From an uncultured Pelagibacteraceae bacterium (GTDB taxonomy: Bacteria; Pseudomonadota; Alphaproteobacteria; Pelagibacterales; Pelagibacteraceae), in NCBI GenBank assembly GCA_902526115.1, contig CABZJV010000006.1:1-48302 (forward strand): a stretch of DNA of 48,302 bases. The letters run 5' to 3'. The translations under genes and the position numbers were made by a program. How positions within the stretch are numbered: the first letter of the stretch is position 1; the number at the start of each line of letters is the position of its first letter. Below are positions 27,069 to 34,568 of this stretch, in pieces. The notes beneath the pieces were generated by a model that worked only from the letters and a program-made list of their open reading frames with translations, searched no databases and was not told the DNA's origin.

Positions 27069-28289
27069 TTAGAGATAATGACTATTATCTTCATTTACCG
27101 CTTTTTCAAGTCTAACTAAAAAATCAGGAATTGCACTTTTTACTCTACTCCAAGTTGGTATAAAAGGTGCGTCCATAGGATTTAAATAAAAATCTTCTCC
27201 AGCTTTAATGATATTCATTGAAAAAAGTTCAACTGCTTTTTCTTCAGTATGAGAGTCAAATTTTAAACCATTCATTTCTGCATCACTTCTATAGGCGTCT
27301 ATTAAATCTAAAGCAGCTCTATAATAAGTTGCTTTTAGTGATCTTAATTGTTCTCTGCTAAAAGAATGGCCTTGGGTAGCCAATTTTTTAATAAAAGTTT
27401 TAATTATATCTATAGACATTCTAGATAGGCCTTTTTTTTCATCATCTAGGGATAATTCTTGATGTTTGTGATCATAAGTATCAGCTAAGTCTACCTGACA
27501 TATATTTTGTGGAGAAAAGTTTCTTTGCATTTCCGATAAAATTCCAATTTCAATTCCCCAGTCAGATGAAATTCTTAACTCAGGTAAAATGTTTCTTCTA
27601 AACGAAAATTCACCTGCTAAAGGATATTTAAAAGATTTCATAAAATCTAAATAGTCACTTTTGCCAATAGTTTTTTCTAAAGCATTTAATAAGGGAAAAA
27701 CCAACAGTCTTGCTACTCTTCCATTCATTTTGTTATCAGCTACTCTTGGATAATAACCTTTACAAAACTCAAAGTTAAATAGAGGATTTACAACAGGATA
27801 AAATAATTTAGCCAACATTCTTCGGTCATAAGTTTTTATATCACAATCATGCAGTGCTACAGATCTAGCACTGTTTCTTGCTATGGACATTCCAATGCAG
27901 TACCAAACATTTCTACCTTTACCATGTTCATTCGGTGCAAGTTCTTTTTTTTGTAATTCTTTATCTAATTTTTTTAAATTTGGACCATCATTCCATAGAA
28001 TAGTGAATGGGGTTTCTAATTTTTCAAAAAAAGTCCATGCTTTTCTTGCTTCTGATTCAGTGGCTTTATCGAGGCCTATTATTATATGATCGATATAATT
28101 AGTCTTGCTAATTTCAGATACTATCTTTGGAAGAGCATCACCTTTTAATTCAGAATAAAGACACGGCAAGATTAGTTCCATCTTTCTCTCTTTAGAGAAA
28201 TTTAAAAGTTCTTTTTCTATTTGCTCAATTGATTTTGTTCCAAAATCATGAAGTGTTGAAATTATTCCATTTTGAGAGAAATCACTCAT
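27069..28289 (-). CDS. gpgS: Glucosyl-3-phosphoglycerate synthase (GpgS-like, GT81)
   Basis: ILPCLYSEL, IIIGLDKATESEARKAWTFFE, NEHGKGRNVWYCIGMSIARN, ALHDCDIKTYDRRMLAKLFYPV, FKYPLAGEFSFRR, SDWGIEIGILSEM. Confidence 0.88.
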   Translation of the reverse strand: MSDFSQNGIISTLHDFGTKSIEQIEKELLNFSKERKMELILPCLYSELKGDALPKIVSEISKTNYIDHIIIGLDKATESEARKAWTFFEKLETPFTILWNDGPNLKKLDKELQKKELAPNEHGKGRNVWYCIGMSIARNSARSVALHDCDIKTYDRRMLAKLFYPVVNPLFNFEFCKGYYPRVADNKMNGRVARLLVFPLLNALEKTIGKSDYLDFMKSFKYPLAGEFSFRRNILPELRISSDWGIEIGILSEMQRNFSPQNICQVDLADTYDHKHQELSLDDEKKGLSRMSIDIIKTFIKKLATQGHSFSREQLRSLKATYYRAALDLIDAYRSDAEMNGLKFDSHTEEKAVELFSMNIIKAGEDFYLNPMDAPFIPTWSRVKSAIPDFLVRLEKAVNEDNSHYL

Positions 28290-28301
28290 AAAAATATATT
28301 A

Positions 28302-29105
28302 TTAATTTTTATTTATTTTAGCCAGAGCCATTTTGATCACATCAGCCCAGCCTTCAGGAGATGGCTTATTTGTTGTTATTAAATCATTTATTGGAATTTG
28401 ATCTAATGTAAATTTATCATTAAACACCAAACAAGGGAAATCACTTGTTTTAAGCATATCTAAATCATTATAATTATCACCAACTGCTATTGTTTTTATA
28501 TTTTGATTTTTTTTCTTAAAAAATCTGACAAATACTTGAAGCGCTTTAGCTTTATTCACTTTATCAGTTAAATTAATAACTCTACCGCCTTCTTGTAAAG
28601 CTAACCCCTTTTTTTTTACAATTTTAGATAATTCTTTTTTTTCATTTTTATTTCCTTCAAATACAAATGGAATAGTGTATTTTCGATCTAAAGCCATTTT
28701 AAGTTTTTCATCTTTTAAACCAAAAATTACACTTTGTTTCTTCTTATCCATCCTAGATAACCATTTACATTTATTTTGTAAATTATCTGGAACTGAATTT
28801 TCAAAAATTTTTGCTAGATTGTCTTTTTCTTTACTTAGGATTAGTTCTTTAGGTAAATTAGAATTTAGTAGTTCTAAACCTTTAATAGCTGCTCCATTTT
28901 CACAAATATAAGGTAAACTTGAACCTAGCTCATTATTAAAATCTAAAATTTCTTTCTCCGTTTTACTTGTGTTAGGTATTATAAAAACACCTTTAGACAG
29001 TAACTTTTTGAGATAATCTTTTATAAGATCAAATTCAAATGTGTCTCTATGAAGAAGAGAGCCATCAAGATCAGTAAATATTAATATCTTATAAATTTTT
29101 TTCAT
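28302..29105 (-). CDS. HAD-family glucosyl/mannosyl-3-phosphoglycerate phosphatase
   Basis: FTDLDGSLLHRDTF, PNTSKTEKEI, CENGAAI, GDNYNDLDMLKTSDFPCLVFN; adjacent to gpgS. Confidence 0.85.
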   Translation of the reverse strand: MKKIYKILIFTDLDGSLLHRDTFEFDLIKDYLKKLLSKGVFIIPNTSKTEKEILDFNNELGSSLPYICENGAAIKGLELLNSNLPKELILSKEKDNLAKIFENSVPDNLQNKCKWLSRMDKKKQSVIFGLKDEKLKMALDRKYTIPFVFEGNKNEKKELSKIVKKKGLALQEGGRVINLTDKVNKAKALQVFVRFFKKKNQNIKTIAVGDNYNDLDMLKTSDFPCLVFNDKFTLDQIPINDLITTNKPSPEGWADVIKMALAKINKN

Positions 29106-30458: not shown

Positions 30459-30550
30459 TATAAAATATCATTGTCGCAGAATTATTAAAAATTAATCTAA
30501 GATGAAGAAAATATTTACTAGAGTAATTAATAACAAACAGGATTTTATAG

Positions 30551-30696
30551 GATAACTTGCACCAAACCTGCGCACAGAGAGATAAAATCAAAAAAATTTA
30601 CTTATTCATCTTGTTCAATTATAAATATTAGCATAAATACTCATGAAATTCACAAATGCCCTCGTGGTGAAATTGGTAGACACAAAGGACTTAAAA
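30551..30696 (+). repeat. Left copy of roughly 146-bp direct repeat: tRNA-Leu upstream region plus 5' half
   Basis: Aligns without net indel (constant offset 781) to 31332..31477; about 9 mismatches by eye, almost all in the first half. Confidence 0.95.
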
Positions 30697-30706
30697 GCCG
30701 AGGGAT
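30658..30706 (+). pseudogene. Internally truncated tRNA-Leu copy (5' half through anticodon loop, then GCCGAGGG resembling the acceptor 3' strand)
   Basis: GCCCTCGTGGTGAAATTGGTAGACACAAAGGACTTAAAA|GCCGAGGGATT compared with the intact tRNA at 31439. Confidence 0.85.
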
Positions 30707-30718
30707 TCACATTTGAGT

Positions 30719-30743
30719 CAGTCCATAGTAGTCCAAGGTAGTC
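30719..30743 (+). repeat. Three AGTC(C/T) repeats at exact 10-nt spacing
   Basis: cAGTCCATAGTAGTCCAAGGTAGTCT. Confidence 0.6.
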
Positions 30744-30822
30744 TAAAAATCCCTCAAAATTTCATAATTATAAATTACCCTTAAATTAATATAAGAAAAT
30801 ATGGCTTAATTAATTTGTGTAG

Positions 30823-30857
30823 ACTTGCACCATACTTGCGCATAGAGAGATAAAATA
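30823..30857 (+). repeat. Third copy of ACTTGCACCANACTTGCGCANAGAGAGATAAAATA motif, upstream of islet cargo gene
   Basis: acttgcaccatacttgcgcatagagagataaaata, near-identical to 30554.. and 31335.. Confidence 0.8.
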
Positions 30858-30871
30858 ATAGAATTTTTAAG

Positions 30872-31300
30872 GTGAAAAGAATATTAATTATTTTTGTTTT
30901 TGGATTGTTTGTGACTGGATGCGAAACAACAACAATTGGTTATCATGAGCATTATAGCAATTGCATGACGATTTCAAGTGGAGCAAGTATTGAAGAAATT
31001 TCAAAATGTGGAAAAGAAAAAAGGTTAACTTATTTAAGTGATACTGATCAAAAGGGAAGTCTAGAAGGAGATACTTACATGCTTTGGGTAGATCTTTTAG
31101 CAAAAAGTGTCAAAGATGGAGAAATATCTGAAACGCAAGCTAAAATGACGTTGCTTGAGAAACAACAGGTGCTTGCATCAAATCAAAGAGACAGAGAATT
31201 ACAAGCACTTCAAAACACAATTAATACAATGCCAAAAACTTACAATTGCTCCAGCACTGGTTACGGAAGCACTGTTTATACTAATTGCACAGGCTACTAA
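30872..31300 (+). CDS. Putative small lipoprotein (GTG start), unknown function
   Basis: MKRILIIFVFGLFVTGCETTT lipobox (FVTG|C); good 142-aa frame. Confidence 0.7.
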   Translation: MKRILIIFVFGLFVTGCETTTIGYHEHYSNCMTISSGASIEEISKCGKEKRLTYLSDTDQKGSLEGDTYMLWVDLLAKSVKDGEISETQAKMTLLEKQQVLASNQRDRELQALQNTINTMPKTYNCSSTGYGSTVYTNCTGY

Positions 31301-31331
31301 TTATATTTTAAAAACTTCTAGGATATTAAAG

Positions 31332-31477
31332 GATAACTTGCACCAGACTTGCGCAAGAGGAGATAAAATAAAAAAATTTTACTTATTCATCTTGTTCAAT
31401 TATAAATATTAGCATAAACACTCATGAAATTCACAAATGCCCTCGTGGTGAAATTGGTAGACACAAAGGACTTAAAA
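31332..31477 (+). repeat. Right copy of direct repeat, continuing into intact tRNA-Leu
   Basis: See 30551..30696. Confidence 0.95.
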
Positions 31478-31524
31478 TCCTTGCCGCTTGCGGAGTGCCA
31501 GTTCGAGTCTGGCCGAGGGCACCA
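31439..31524 (+). tRNA. tRNA-Leu(UAA), CCA encoded
   Basis: Acceptor GCCCTCG/CGAGGGC, anticodon stem AAGGA-CTTAAAA-TCCTT, long variable arm, GTTCGAGTC T loop. Confidence 0.96.
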
Positions 31525-31528
31525 TTAA

Positions 31529-32299
31529 ATGAGTAAACTTCAAATCATTTCAGATAAAAATATAAAATCTCTCCGAATTAAAAAGATACTCACAAAAAAG
31601 ATTGAAACTAATCAATTTAAAAAATCTAATCTGGTAATTGTTATAGGAGGTGATGGCTTCATGCTTCAAACGCTTAAAAAAAACAAAAATGCAAAAAAAC
31701 AATTCTATGGAATCAATTCTGGAAATTATGGATTTTTGATGAATATATTTTCTTCAAAAAATATTATTAAAAATTTAACTAAAGCCAATATGATCTCAAT
31801 TTTTCCTTTAGAAATGACTGTTAAAAATAAGAATAATAAAACAAAGAAATCAATAGCTATTAATGAAGTGTCTGTTCTAAGACAAAGCAGACAGGCAGCA
31901 TCATTATCAATTAGACAAGGTTCAAGGAAAATAATTAAAAACTTAGTTTCTGATGGAGTTTTAGTATCAACGCCCGCTGGAAGTACTGCTTATAATTTAT
32001 CAGTTCATGGTCCAATATTAAGTTTAAATTCTAAAAAATTATCTATTTCACCAATTAGCCCTTTTAGACCAAGAAGATGGAAAGGGAAAATTGTTAATGA
32101 TAAATCTAAGATAACTATCACTAACTTAAATCCATTAAAAAGACCTATAAGCGCAGTTGCTGATAATCTAGAAGTAAGAAATGCAAAGTCGATTACAATT
32201 AAAACTAACACCAAAATCAAGTTTAATCTTCTTTATGATAAAAACCGAAGTTTACAAAAAAAAATTAAAATTGAGCAATTGAGAGGTGAAATAAATTAA
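31529..32299 (+). CDS. nadK: NAD kinase
   Basis: IGGDGFMLQTL, GINSGNYGFLMN, NEVSVLR, DGVLVSTPAGSTAYNLSVHGPI. Confidence 0.95.
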   Translation: MSKLQIISDKNIKSLRIKKILTKKIETNQFKKSNLVIVIGGDGFMLQTLKKNKNAKKQFYGINSGNYGFLMNIFSSKNIIKNLTKANMISIFPLEMTVKNKNNKTKKSIAINEVSVLRQSRQAASLSIRQGSRKIIKNLVSDGVLVSTPAGSTAYNLSVHGPILSLNSKKLSISPISPFRPRRWKGKIVNDKSKITITNLNPLKRPISAVADNLEVRNAKSITIKTNTKIKFNLLYDKNRSLQKKIKIEQLRGEIN

Positions 32300-32301
32300 A
32301 T

Positions 32302-32439
32302 ATGAAAAAAATTAATCCGATTATATTAATAGCAATAGTTTTAATAGGTGGTTTTTTTGCATTTAAAATAATGTCTTTTTTGGGTTGCTATGTTCGTCTT
32401 GAAGATGCAGATAAGTGCTGGAAGTTGACTATTTGGTAA
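32302..32439 (+). CDS. Small hypothetical single-TM protein (45 aa), not in ORF track
   Basis: Manual translation MKKINPIILIAIVLIGGFFAFKIMSFLGCYVRLEDADKCWKLTIW*; packed between nadK and the next gene. Confidence 0.5.
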   Translation: MKKINPIILIAIVLIGGFFAFKIMSFLGCYVRLEDADKCWKLTIW

Positions 32440-32445
32440 GAGATT

Positions 32446-33027
32446 ATGAAAAAACTTTTAGGGATCGTAGTTCTGAGCTTGTTATGGATAATTCCAGTAT
32501 CAGCTGATGAAAGATTTATTCCTTTAGAGCTCTTTACTGGTGGTGAAATAAGAGAAGATACAGAAATTAAATTTACAAATGCTAATTTAGTATTTGGTGA
32601 AAAGAAAAGAAAAAAAATAGTTGGACCTGAAGATTGGAAAAATCCTCAAACCGGAAAAACAACTAAGGTTTATAAAAGAACAAGAAAAAGTCAAAGCGGA
32701 TTAAAAACACAGTTATTTACAGTCACTAATGATGGACAGTGTATTGGTAGAGTTTGGGATAGTAGACGTGGAGGAAGAGTAATAAAAAATGGATGTAAAT
32801 TTCCTTTAGGGATTTGGAAAGAAGGTGAGACCAGATCATTTACAGGTGCTTCTGGTGGTAAGCCAAGAAAAATAGAATTGACTATTTTAAAATTAGGAAA
32901 GAAGAATAAAGATAAAGTAAAATTTAATTGGAAACTTTATGATGGAAGTGGAAAATTAATGGATGACAATGATTATACTTTTTCACCTGGGAAAGCTATG
33001 ACTAAGCTAAATGATAAAAAATTATAA
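32446..33027 (+). CDS. Exported protein of unknown function with MKKLLGIVVL-type signal peptide
   Basis: 193 aa with signal peptide MKKLLGIVVLSLLWIIPVSA. Confidence 0.75.
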   Translation: MKKLLGIVVLSLLWIIPVSADERFIPLELFTGGEIREDTEIKFTNANLVFGEKKRKKIVGPEDWKNPQTGKTTKVYKRTRKSQSGLKTQLFTVTNDGQCIGRVWDSRRGGRVIKNGCKFPLGIWKEGETRSFTGASGGKPRKIELTILKLGKKNKDKVKFNWKLYDGSGKLMDDNDYTFSPGKAMTKLNDKKL

Positions 33028-33056
33028 TTAATCCTGACACACTCAAAATCAGAATT

Positions 33057-33156
33057 TAGTTAAAATTTAACTTTGCAAAAATAAAAAGCGTTGATTTTAT
33101 TAAGTGAAGTGGTGCCCCCGCACGGATTCGAACCGCGGACCTATTGATTACAAATC
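33057..33156 (-). repeat. Left copy of tRNA-Thr 3' half plus its 3' flank
   Basis: 33110..33156 identical over 47 nt to 34460..34506; the adjacent roughly 53 bp is alignable but diverged. Confidence 0.95.
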
Positions 33157-33216
33157 TTGTATCACCAATTAAATAAATATGTTTTAGCAATACTTATAAA
33201 CAATCATCAGTAATCT

Positions 33217-33238
33217 CGACACACGTACGACACAATGC
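33217..33238. repeat. Two CGACACA repeats, 11-nt period
   Basis: CGACACACGTA CGACACAATGC. Confidence 0.7.
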
Positions 33239-33251
33239 TAATCTTATCATA

Positions 33252-34361
33252 ATGAAAAAACTTTTAGGGATCGTGGTTCTGGTATTTTTGAACCTTAATA
33301 TAGCTCAAGCAAATCAAATTGCCGATCTATCAAATTCAAAATGGGAAATTTATAAATCTAAAGGAATAAAAAAAATATGGGTTGAGTTTCATAATGGTGG
33401 CAGCTGCACATGGTCATGGAAAGATTTATGGATGCTAAAGACATATGAAAATGAGTGTGAATGGACACAGGATAAGGACAAAGTAAGGTTTTCAATAAAT
33501 AATAATTTTACAAAATTTTATGGATCAGTGACTGATAATTCAATGAGAGGAACTTCAGATAGCAAGCAATATCCTACATCAAATTTTAATGCTACACCGA
33601 TTTACATAAATAAATATATAGCTCTAAAACCAAAGGAAATTGATCAACCTAAAAAAAAGAAACCTATAGCAAGTCCTGATGACGATAAAATTGTTCCAGC
33701 CGGTTCAGGTTCAGGGTTCTTTGTTTCAAAAGACGGACATGCAATAACAAATTATCATGTGATAGAAGGTTGTGACATTAATAAATTATCATTCAAGGGT
33801 TCACAAACAGAAGTCAAAGTTTTAGCAGTTGATAAAGTAAATGATATTGCAATATTAAAATCTAATGCAAAACCAGATGTAATATTTCCAGTCTCAAACG
33901 AAGATGTTTCATTACTAGAAGATGTAATCGTAGCAGGTTTTCCATTAGGTAAACAAATTAGTTCAGCAATTAAAACTCACAAAGGAGTTGTTACTGCATT
34001 AGCTGGAGCAGGGGATAACTACTCATTTTTTCAAACTGATGCAGCAATCAATCAAGGAAATAGTGGTGGACCTATAATCAATCAAAAAGGTAATGTGGTT
34101 GGTATTGCTGTTGCAACATGGGTTGAAGAAGGTGTTCAAGGAGTTCACTTTGGCATTAAATCATCAACGTTAAAAACTTTTGCTAGTGCAAATGGATTAA
34201 GCTTTGTTTCCCCAAATTACAGAGATCTTTCTAATAAAGATTTAGGAAAATTAATTACTAAAGGCACAGTTTACGTTGAGTGTCATATGACAGTTGCAAA
34301 GATTAAAAAGATGATTGCTCAAGCAGAAAACAGAAAAGCATTTTTCAAAGAACACAAATAG
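33252..34361 (+). CDS. Exported trypsin-like (S1C/HtrA-type) serine protease without PDZ, with N-terminal extension
   Basis: Signal peptide MKKLLGIVVLVFLNLNIAQA; GSGFFVSKDGHAITNYHVIEGC (His), DIAILK (Asp), QGNSGGPIINQKGNVVGI (Ser). Confidence 0.88.
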   Translation: MKKLLGIVVLVFLNLNIAQANQIADLSNSKWEIYKSKGIKKIWVEFHNGGSCTWSWKDLWMLKTYENECEWTQDKDKVRFSINNNFTKFYGSVTDNSMRGTSDSKQYPTSNFNATPIYINKYIALKPKEIDQPKKKKPIASPDDDKIVPAGSGSGFFVSKDGHAITNYHVIEGCDINKLSFKGSQTEVKVLAVDKVNDIAILKSNAKPDVIFPVSNEDVSLLEDVIVAGFPLGKQISSAIKTHKGVVTALAGAGDNYSFFQTDAAINQGNSGGPIINQKGNVVGIAVATWVEEGVQGVHFGIKSSTLKTFASANGLSFVSPNYRDLSNKDLGKLITKGTVYVECHMTVAKIKKMIAQAENRKAFFKEHK

Positions 34362-34374
34362 GACTACTTGACCA

Positions 34375-34407
34375 CGACACTAGTTCGACACACCCTCGAC
34401 ACAATAG
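34375..34407. repeat. Three CGACAC repeats, exact 11-nt period
   Basis: CGACACTAGTT CGACACACCCT CGACACAATAG. Confidence 0.75.
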
Positions 34408-34459
34408 TTAAAAGTTTTTAAATTTAGCAAAAATAATTAATGTTGGATTTATTGAGTAA

Positions 34460-34535
34460 TGGTGCCCCCGCACGGATTCGAACCGCGGACCTATTGATTA
34501 CAAATCAATTGCTCTACCAACTGAGCTACAAGGGC
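34460..34535 (-). tRNA. tRNA-Thr(UGU), CCA encoded
   Basis: Minus strand GCCCTTGTAGCTCAGTTGGTAGAGCAATTGATTTGTAATCAATAGGTCCGCGGTTCGAATCCGTGCGGGGGCACCA. Confidence 0.96.
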
Positions 34536-34568
34536 ATGCGCAATAATTATTAACTATTTAATAAATAA

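Follow-up and report, generated by a model that had tools for sequence, protein, structure and literature searches.

Several described systems place cargo genes at a chromosomal attachment (att) site. The cis-mobilizable elements (CIMEs) of streptococcal integrative and conjugative elements (ICEs) and integrative and mobilizable elements (IMEs) keep their att sites without recombination genes, carry 1.2–13 kb of cargo and form tandem composites beside an integrase-bearing element, which they outnumber (PMC7563491). Dehalococcoides has tandem cargo islands at a single RNA gene, ssrA, some of them without an integration module (PMC3146451), and the tycheposons of Prochlorococcus are marine cargo elements bounded by tRNA, described as 4–200 kb in size and with an encoded tyrosine recombinase (PMC10872708). 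In SAR11 bacteria tRNA genes flank hypervariable region (HVR) 4, and attC sites were reported to be absent from the HVRs (PMC2217521); in the open-access literature searched we found no description of integrase-less tRNA cassettes from this group. Here we describe a tRNA-Leu and a tRNA-Thr cassette in a 48,302-nt stretch from an uncultured Pelagibacteraceae bacterium (contig CABZJV010000006.1, GCA_902526115.1; hereafter the window, whose numbering all positions follow). We consider it likely that these are two small non-autonomous integrative cassettes at two tRNA att sites, accompanied by older remnants and mobilised in trans by the tyrosine integrases of satellites.

tRNA calling placed an intact tRNA-Leu(UAA) gene (anticodon TAA in the DNA) at 31439–31524 on the forward strand and an intact tRNA-Thr(UGU) gene (TGT) at 34460–34535 on the reverse strand, and a repeat search matched each to a partial copy 0.8–1.35 kb away. 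For tRNA-Leu, a 173-nt repeat of 90% identity (D1; 30527–30699 against 31308–31480) covers the upstream region and 5′ half of the gene; the partial copy itself (30658–30696, forward strand) is a 39-nt 5′ half, index 1–39, preceded by approximately 130 nt of the Leu upstream region, and since the repeat spans the whole promoter region the element carries the tRNA promoter. Boundary tests led us to read the 5′ half of the intact gene as element-borne and its 3′ half as chromosomal. For tRNA-Thr, a 47-nt repeat of 100% identity (D3; 33110–33156 against 34460–34506, the partial copy on the reverse strand) comprises the 3′ half, index 30–76, and a further repeat (D7; 40 nt, 75%) carries the homology past the 3′ end of the tRNA. 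As a preliminary description of the sequence had it, both copies break at the anticodon loop: the Leu common sequence stops at index 39, the 3′ edge of the loop, with chance matches to 42, and the Thr half starts at index 30, 2 nt outside the loop (32–38). These halves form the left boundaries of a Leu cassette of 0.74 kb and a Thr cassette of 1.3 kb. An intact tRNA at one end, a displaced fragment at the other and a crossover in the anticodon loop are the marks of elements whose tyrosine integrases target tRNA genes, and a breakpoint in the loop is by itself no new mechanism because this is the normal crossover place of such enzymes (PMC8371274). The polarity of the Leu cassette is unusual, since recombinant tRNA genes in bacteria almost always retain their own promoter (PMC8371274), and puts the Leu cassettes in a rare class that brings a tRNA 5′ half together with its promoter.

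The arrangement recurred in 80 Pelagibacteraceae loci in GTDB, collected in a single scan that used the intervening NAD kinase and considered together with the window. Partial copies accompanied 44 of 80 intact Leu sites and 26 of 59 intact Thr sites, and none was found for the neighbouring control tRNAs in the same loci (Tyr 0/49, Gly 0/48, Trp 0/47). Breakpoints clustered at the anticodon loop, with one half per tRNA: 5′ halves made up 49 of the 52 Leu partial copies, ending at index 39–44 bar one at 33, and 3′ halves made up 41 of the 43 Thr partial copies, starting at index 22–31. Leu cassettes numbered 50, with a median length of 2.1 kb, and Thr cassettes 31, with a median of 1.5 kb; insertions occurred at both sites in 15 loci, and eleven site-locus pairs held tandem arrays. 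Clean empty sites were also present for both tRNAs: at the one, 98 bp separated a HAD-family hydrolase gene from the tRNA-Leu behind it, and at the other tRNA-Thr came after NAD kinase and a 45-aa open reading frame (ORF). An unbiased sample of the family contained at least two copies of the Leu pattern in 33 of the 85 same-genus genomes having that pattern, and at least two of the Thr pattern in 19 of 88 (both counted from tables), against zero in reversed-pattern controls; as several genomes with multiple copies are closed single contigs, an assembly artefact is unlikely. The cassette hotspot proposed for SAR11 was thus borne out by the survey, and neither of the outcomes that the preliminary description had named as contrary to it, breakpoints spread uniformly along the tRNAs or a lack of presence/absence polymorphism, was observed.

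Both window cassettes carry paired 8-bp words at each end (all on the forward strand). In the Leu cassette, period analysis identified three AGTCY direct repeats at a 10-bp period in the left arm (30717–30744), and word comparison a pair ACTTGCAC-cat-ACTTGCGC at an 11-bp period (30823–30841, +126 from the tRNA half) and a second pair ACTTGCAC-cag-ACTTGCGC (31336–31354) in the right arm, which also holds the tRNA promoter region (31308–31438). In the Thr cassette the word CGACACA forms a left pair at an 11-bp period (33217–33234) and returns at 34375, the first of three CGACAC copies of the same period (34375–34403). Leu cassettes in general run from the tRNA 5′ half through three AGTCY repeats, a word pair at about +125, cargo lying mostly on the same strand as the tRNA, another word pair and the promoter region to the intact tRNA, and Thr cassettes have words at the 11-bp period in both arms. 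Repeats of the arm type therefore stand on both sides of the core, as in tRNA-targeting tyrosine-integrase elements, and they are strongly specific in period: the 11-bp word repeat was found in 34 of 50 Leu right arms (0.5 expected) and 21 of 31 Thr right arms (0.3 expected), and the 10-bp AGTC repeat in 17 of 50 Leu left arms (0.3 expected). The words vary from cassette to cassette, yet agree at both ends within one cassette. Left and right Leu words matched at 15.05 of 16 positions against 11.16 ± 0.26 in permutations (n = 42, p < 1e-4), a result that held for 23 non-redundant words (14.7 against 10.6 ± 0.35; 0 of 20000 permutations), and the Thr words matched at 7.04 against 6.11 ± 0.14 (p < 1e-4). 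Among the Leu cassettes whose ends do not match are composites bearing an internal word pair, e.g. L020 and L042 (L-numbers are our labels for loci, genomes and viral contigs); such internal pairs were also seen in L006, L070 and L126. The composites suggest that whole attachment modules were deleted between neighbours and their cargos fused.

Comparison between genomes points to recent transfer with boundaries at the att sites. A 2.6-kb Leu cassette, with 2.4 kb of cargo, is 99.4–99.8% identical in L015, L042, L048 and L063, beside NAD kinase genes that are only 80–87% identical, and between L048 and L063 the block of identity opens inside the tRNA half, downstream of an unrelated flank, and closes at the tRNA gene. 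The horizontal movement implied in the preliminary description is hence visible, as is exchange of cargo between shells: the 2373-bp interiors of L015 and L063 have a single mismatch, whilst the two arms differ together, each outward of the inner edge of its word pair. Cargo families, and genes of 92–94% identity, occur at both the Leu and the Thr sites. The cargo comprises restriction-modification systems, transporters, glucosyl-3-phosphoglycerate synthase, carbamoyltransferase, pilin-like proteins and many unknown proteins. Ten integrase queries gave no match to any cassette ORF in the surveyed loci, no PF00589 integrase was matched in the genome to which the window belongs (completeness only 59%), and no primase was seen among the annotated cargo; that the cassettes lack an integrase had been noted beforehand and agrees with these searches.

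Candidate mobilisers were found among small satellites with the same attachment sites. The Leu attP layout lies directly upstream of a tyrosine recombinase of ~545 aa in the IMG/VR elements L081, L096, L100 and L102/L118, which also encode a primase-helicase, and several satellites with this layout (e.g. L081, L096 and L100) have terminal repeats of 81–127 bp, as expected of circular sequences; membership of IMG/VR is by itself no proof of packaging in phage particles. Satellites of 7.7–10 kb with the ~545-aa integrase are integrated at the cassettes' own tRNA-Leu in the SAR11 genomes L125 and L126, in the latter in tandem with a cargo-only cassette, and the word of the L125 satellite, ACTAGAAAC, is also a word of cargo-only cassettes. 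The second (left) word pair of the satellites (L081:143–260, L163, L164, L168) falls within the opening codons of the integrase gene, so that their DNA address doubles as coding sequence. Few genomes encode this integrase (4 of 397), and it was not found in isolated phages. For the Thr site, a 328-aa integrase adjoins the Thr 3′ half on one viral contig, L105, and a comparable word pair accompanies it. The preliminary description had read the two insertions as one mechanism acting twice; this does not hold, given the opposite tRNA halves, the different arms and integrases (~545 and 328 aa) of marginal similarity only, and the Leu and Thr cassettes are instead two att systems that share a general plan. 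Related small elements (L157, L158, L159, L161, L165, L168) involve 3′ copies of tRNA-Asn, -Arg and -Met and, by reading of the sequence, a tRNA-Cys 5′ half, with breakpoints near the anticodon loop, which makes tRNA satellites a wider SAR11 theme.

On these observations we propose that each cassette would be a lambda-like attP whose two arms enclose the cargo, with the anticodon loop as core and at least two copies of a short recognition word in each arm. A Leu cassette would bring the 5′ half of tRNA-Leu with its promoter and a Thr cassette the 3′ half of tRNA-Thr, insertion restoring an intact tRNA and pushing the other copy aside. Small satellites sharing this tRNA and attP layout would supply the tyrosine integrases that act in trans to insert the cassette and to excise it, presumably as a circular intermediate; the words may be arm sites for the integrase (or for a directionality factor) and would specify which member of the integrase family can act. 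Rare virus-satellite elements with the same end tags thus probably move the cassettes, and passage from cell to cell may take place in phage particles. Several points weigh against this proposal. Excision, a circular cargo-only cassette and packaging were not directly observed, and the shell exchange between L015 and L063 is weakened as proof of a circle, since homologous recombination, through a double crossover at the conserved inner edges, would leave the same pattern. The Thr helper is represented by the single viral contig L105, whose relatives in genomes lie at other tRNAs (Asn, Arg, Met) or have no tRNA nearby. Resemblance to a known Leu satellite word was limited to two cassette words (ACTAGAAAC of L125 and ACTAGTAAT of L100), and a pattern scan of the viral contigs gave no match to the commonest left-arm text, GCCGAGGGAT, so that a helper for that arm was not found.

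The most serious competing explanation, although an improbable one, is that the cassettes are dead satellite or prophage remnants that decayed in place, are now immobile and spread by homologous recombination between cells. Degraded partial tRNAs (84–93% in L038, L054 and L056), the homology-like joining evident in the composites L006, L020, L042 and L070, and the rarity of the satellite integrases would all fit, but decay would have erased the agreement of the words at both ends, the cargo is host-type metabolism and defence and not satellite genes, and recombination driven by flanking homology does not give a block whose start lies within the tRNA half next to upstream sequence that is unrelated, as in L048 and L063. 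An ordinary segmental tandem duplication of the tRNA region followed by divergence accounts for direct repeats that include flanking sequence, but we rejected it as highly improbable given the unrelated foreign genes between the repeats, different in each genome, and the single breakpoint class and polarity per tRNA in a survey where control tRNAs had no copies.

Other enzymes might also act on the cassettes. Pelagiphage integrases, for which tRNA-Leu would be their own attB, are an unlikely source: an HTVC019P-like phage with a tRNA-Leu att site has been published (PMC3861242), and the phage-like IMG/VR contigs L082, L085, L087, L093 and L098 have an exact copy of the Leu 5′ half immediately behind an integrase C-terminus, but neither the 11-bp word pairs nor the AGTC repeats were found in these contigs. 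The tRNA half is shared and the arms are not, and we rejected an identity of attP on this basis; in favour of pelagiphages, L023 (6796–7839) has a related, pelagiphage-type integrase gene beside a tRNA-Leu whose 5′ part is unrecognisable. The preliminary description had suggested mobilisation in trans by a pelagiphage or other integrase, and it is the latter part, through the satellites L081, L100, L125 and L126, that gained support. Slightly less probable still is an integron-integrase-like action in trans of the single conserved SAR11 tyrosine recombinase of ~320 aa. This family is present in 33 of 40 SAR11 genomes, nearly always as one copy distant from the cassettes, and a probable phage integrase is recorded in HVR2 of HTCC1062 (PMC2217521). 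Its closest curated families are XerC/XerD/XerA-like, and the genomes L108–L117 typically have one PF00589 recombinase of this length and no separate full-scoring XerC and XerD pair. Enzymes of the XerC/XerD/XerA-like type are not known to have an arm-binding domain, while the arm sites of the cassettes are elaborate and match those of satellites, and one constant enzyme leaves the word differences between cassettes unexplained. The family showed no significant similarity to the satellite integrases and was also rejected as kin of the Thr helper.

Both window sites already held an older insertion before the present cassette; like the promoter carried in the Leu repeat and the paired words, these had escaped the preliminary description. 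What remains at the Leu site is a right arm that includes the tRNA-Leu promoter region and precedes the Leu half (30527–30657, forward strand; word pair at 30555–30573); it is part of repeat D1 and laid out as in the right arms of other Leu cassettes. The Leu cargo is a 142-aa ORF (30872–31300, forward) with a signal-peptide/lipobox start and no Pfam family. Between the two sites lie the fixed NAD kinase gene (31529–32299, forward; Pfam, survey) and its accompanying 45-aa ORF (32302–32439, forward). The older Thr insertion (32446–33050, forward) comprises the gene of a 193-aa secreted protein (H193; 32446–33027), elsewhere present at both Leu and Thr sites, and a decayed right-arm remnant (33035–33050), and the Thr cargo is a 369-aa trypsin-like serine protease (33252–34361, forward; ORF list, Pfam). 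The latter opens with a 30-nt DNA word, ATGAAAAAACTTTTAGGGATCGTGGTTCTG (signal peptide MKKLLGIVVL), that begins many unrelated cargo proteins; it lies at 32446–32475 and 33252–33281 in the window and has 56 copies in the surveyed loci. Truncated remnants abut cassette arms (L008:7751, L030:7756, L080:6633, L029:9079), and its 24-nt core is rare genome-wide (0–5 copies), often at Leu and Thr tRNA islands; it is possibly a portable signal-peptide or recombination module. The glucosyl-3-phosphoglycerate synthase/HAD pair for osmolyte synthesis (27069–29105) has degraded tRNA-Leu halves on either side in several genomes (L054, L055, L056, L059, L079), and on that account may be an ancient fixed cassette.

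SAR11 are the most abundant bacteria in the ocean, streamlined and with few known mobile elements, yet their genes for nutrients, osmolytes and defence vary; cassettes that work without a resident recombinase would account for the trade in small gene sets within such a lineage. Compared with known systems, the cassettes resemble tycheposons in their tRNA boundary, as the preliminary description had proposed, but they have no recombinase and, at 0.74 and 1.3 kb in the window and medians of 2.1 and 1.5 kb in the survey, fall below the tycheposon range; with these two defining features (PMC10872708) missing, we rejected membership. Hotspot, loop breakpoints, polymorphism and the lack of an integrase therefore stand, and single mechanism, tycheposon kinship and pelagiphage do not. 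L081, L100, L125 and L126, with integrase and primase, 7.7–10 kb and several of circular type, are similar to marine phage satellites or virion-encapsidated integrative mobile elements (named in PMC10803314); the cassettes, without either gene, are at most dependents of such satellites. The Dehalococcoides islands differ in using a serine recombinase and a 3′ T-loop site, and many carry an integrase. Integrons likewise exchange small pieces of cargo that have recombination sites and do not themselves encode a recombinase, but no local integrase was found at the tRNA loci, and the site here is a tRNA. The cassettes, which keep att sites without recombination genes, work like CIMEs, from which they differ in having phage-satellite-like relatives and not ICEs or IMEs, in bringing a tRNA-Leu 5′ half with its promoter, in matched words that vary by cassette and in cargo exchanged between shells. 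The end words offer a sequence-readable link from a cargo cassette to its mobiliser, testable in metagenomes and in vitro. More tentatively, and on balance doubtfully, SAR11 may practise a decentralised gene capture, with cargo in exchangeable shells, words as the address and rare word-matched satellites as mobile integrases for a shared metabolic and defence pool at fixed twin tRNA docks; if true, integrons and classical genomic islands would be joined by a third design.

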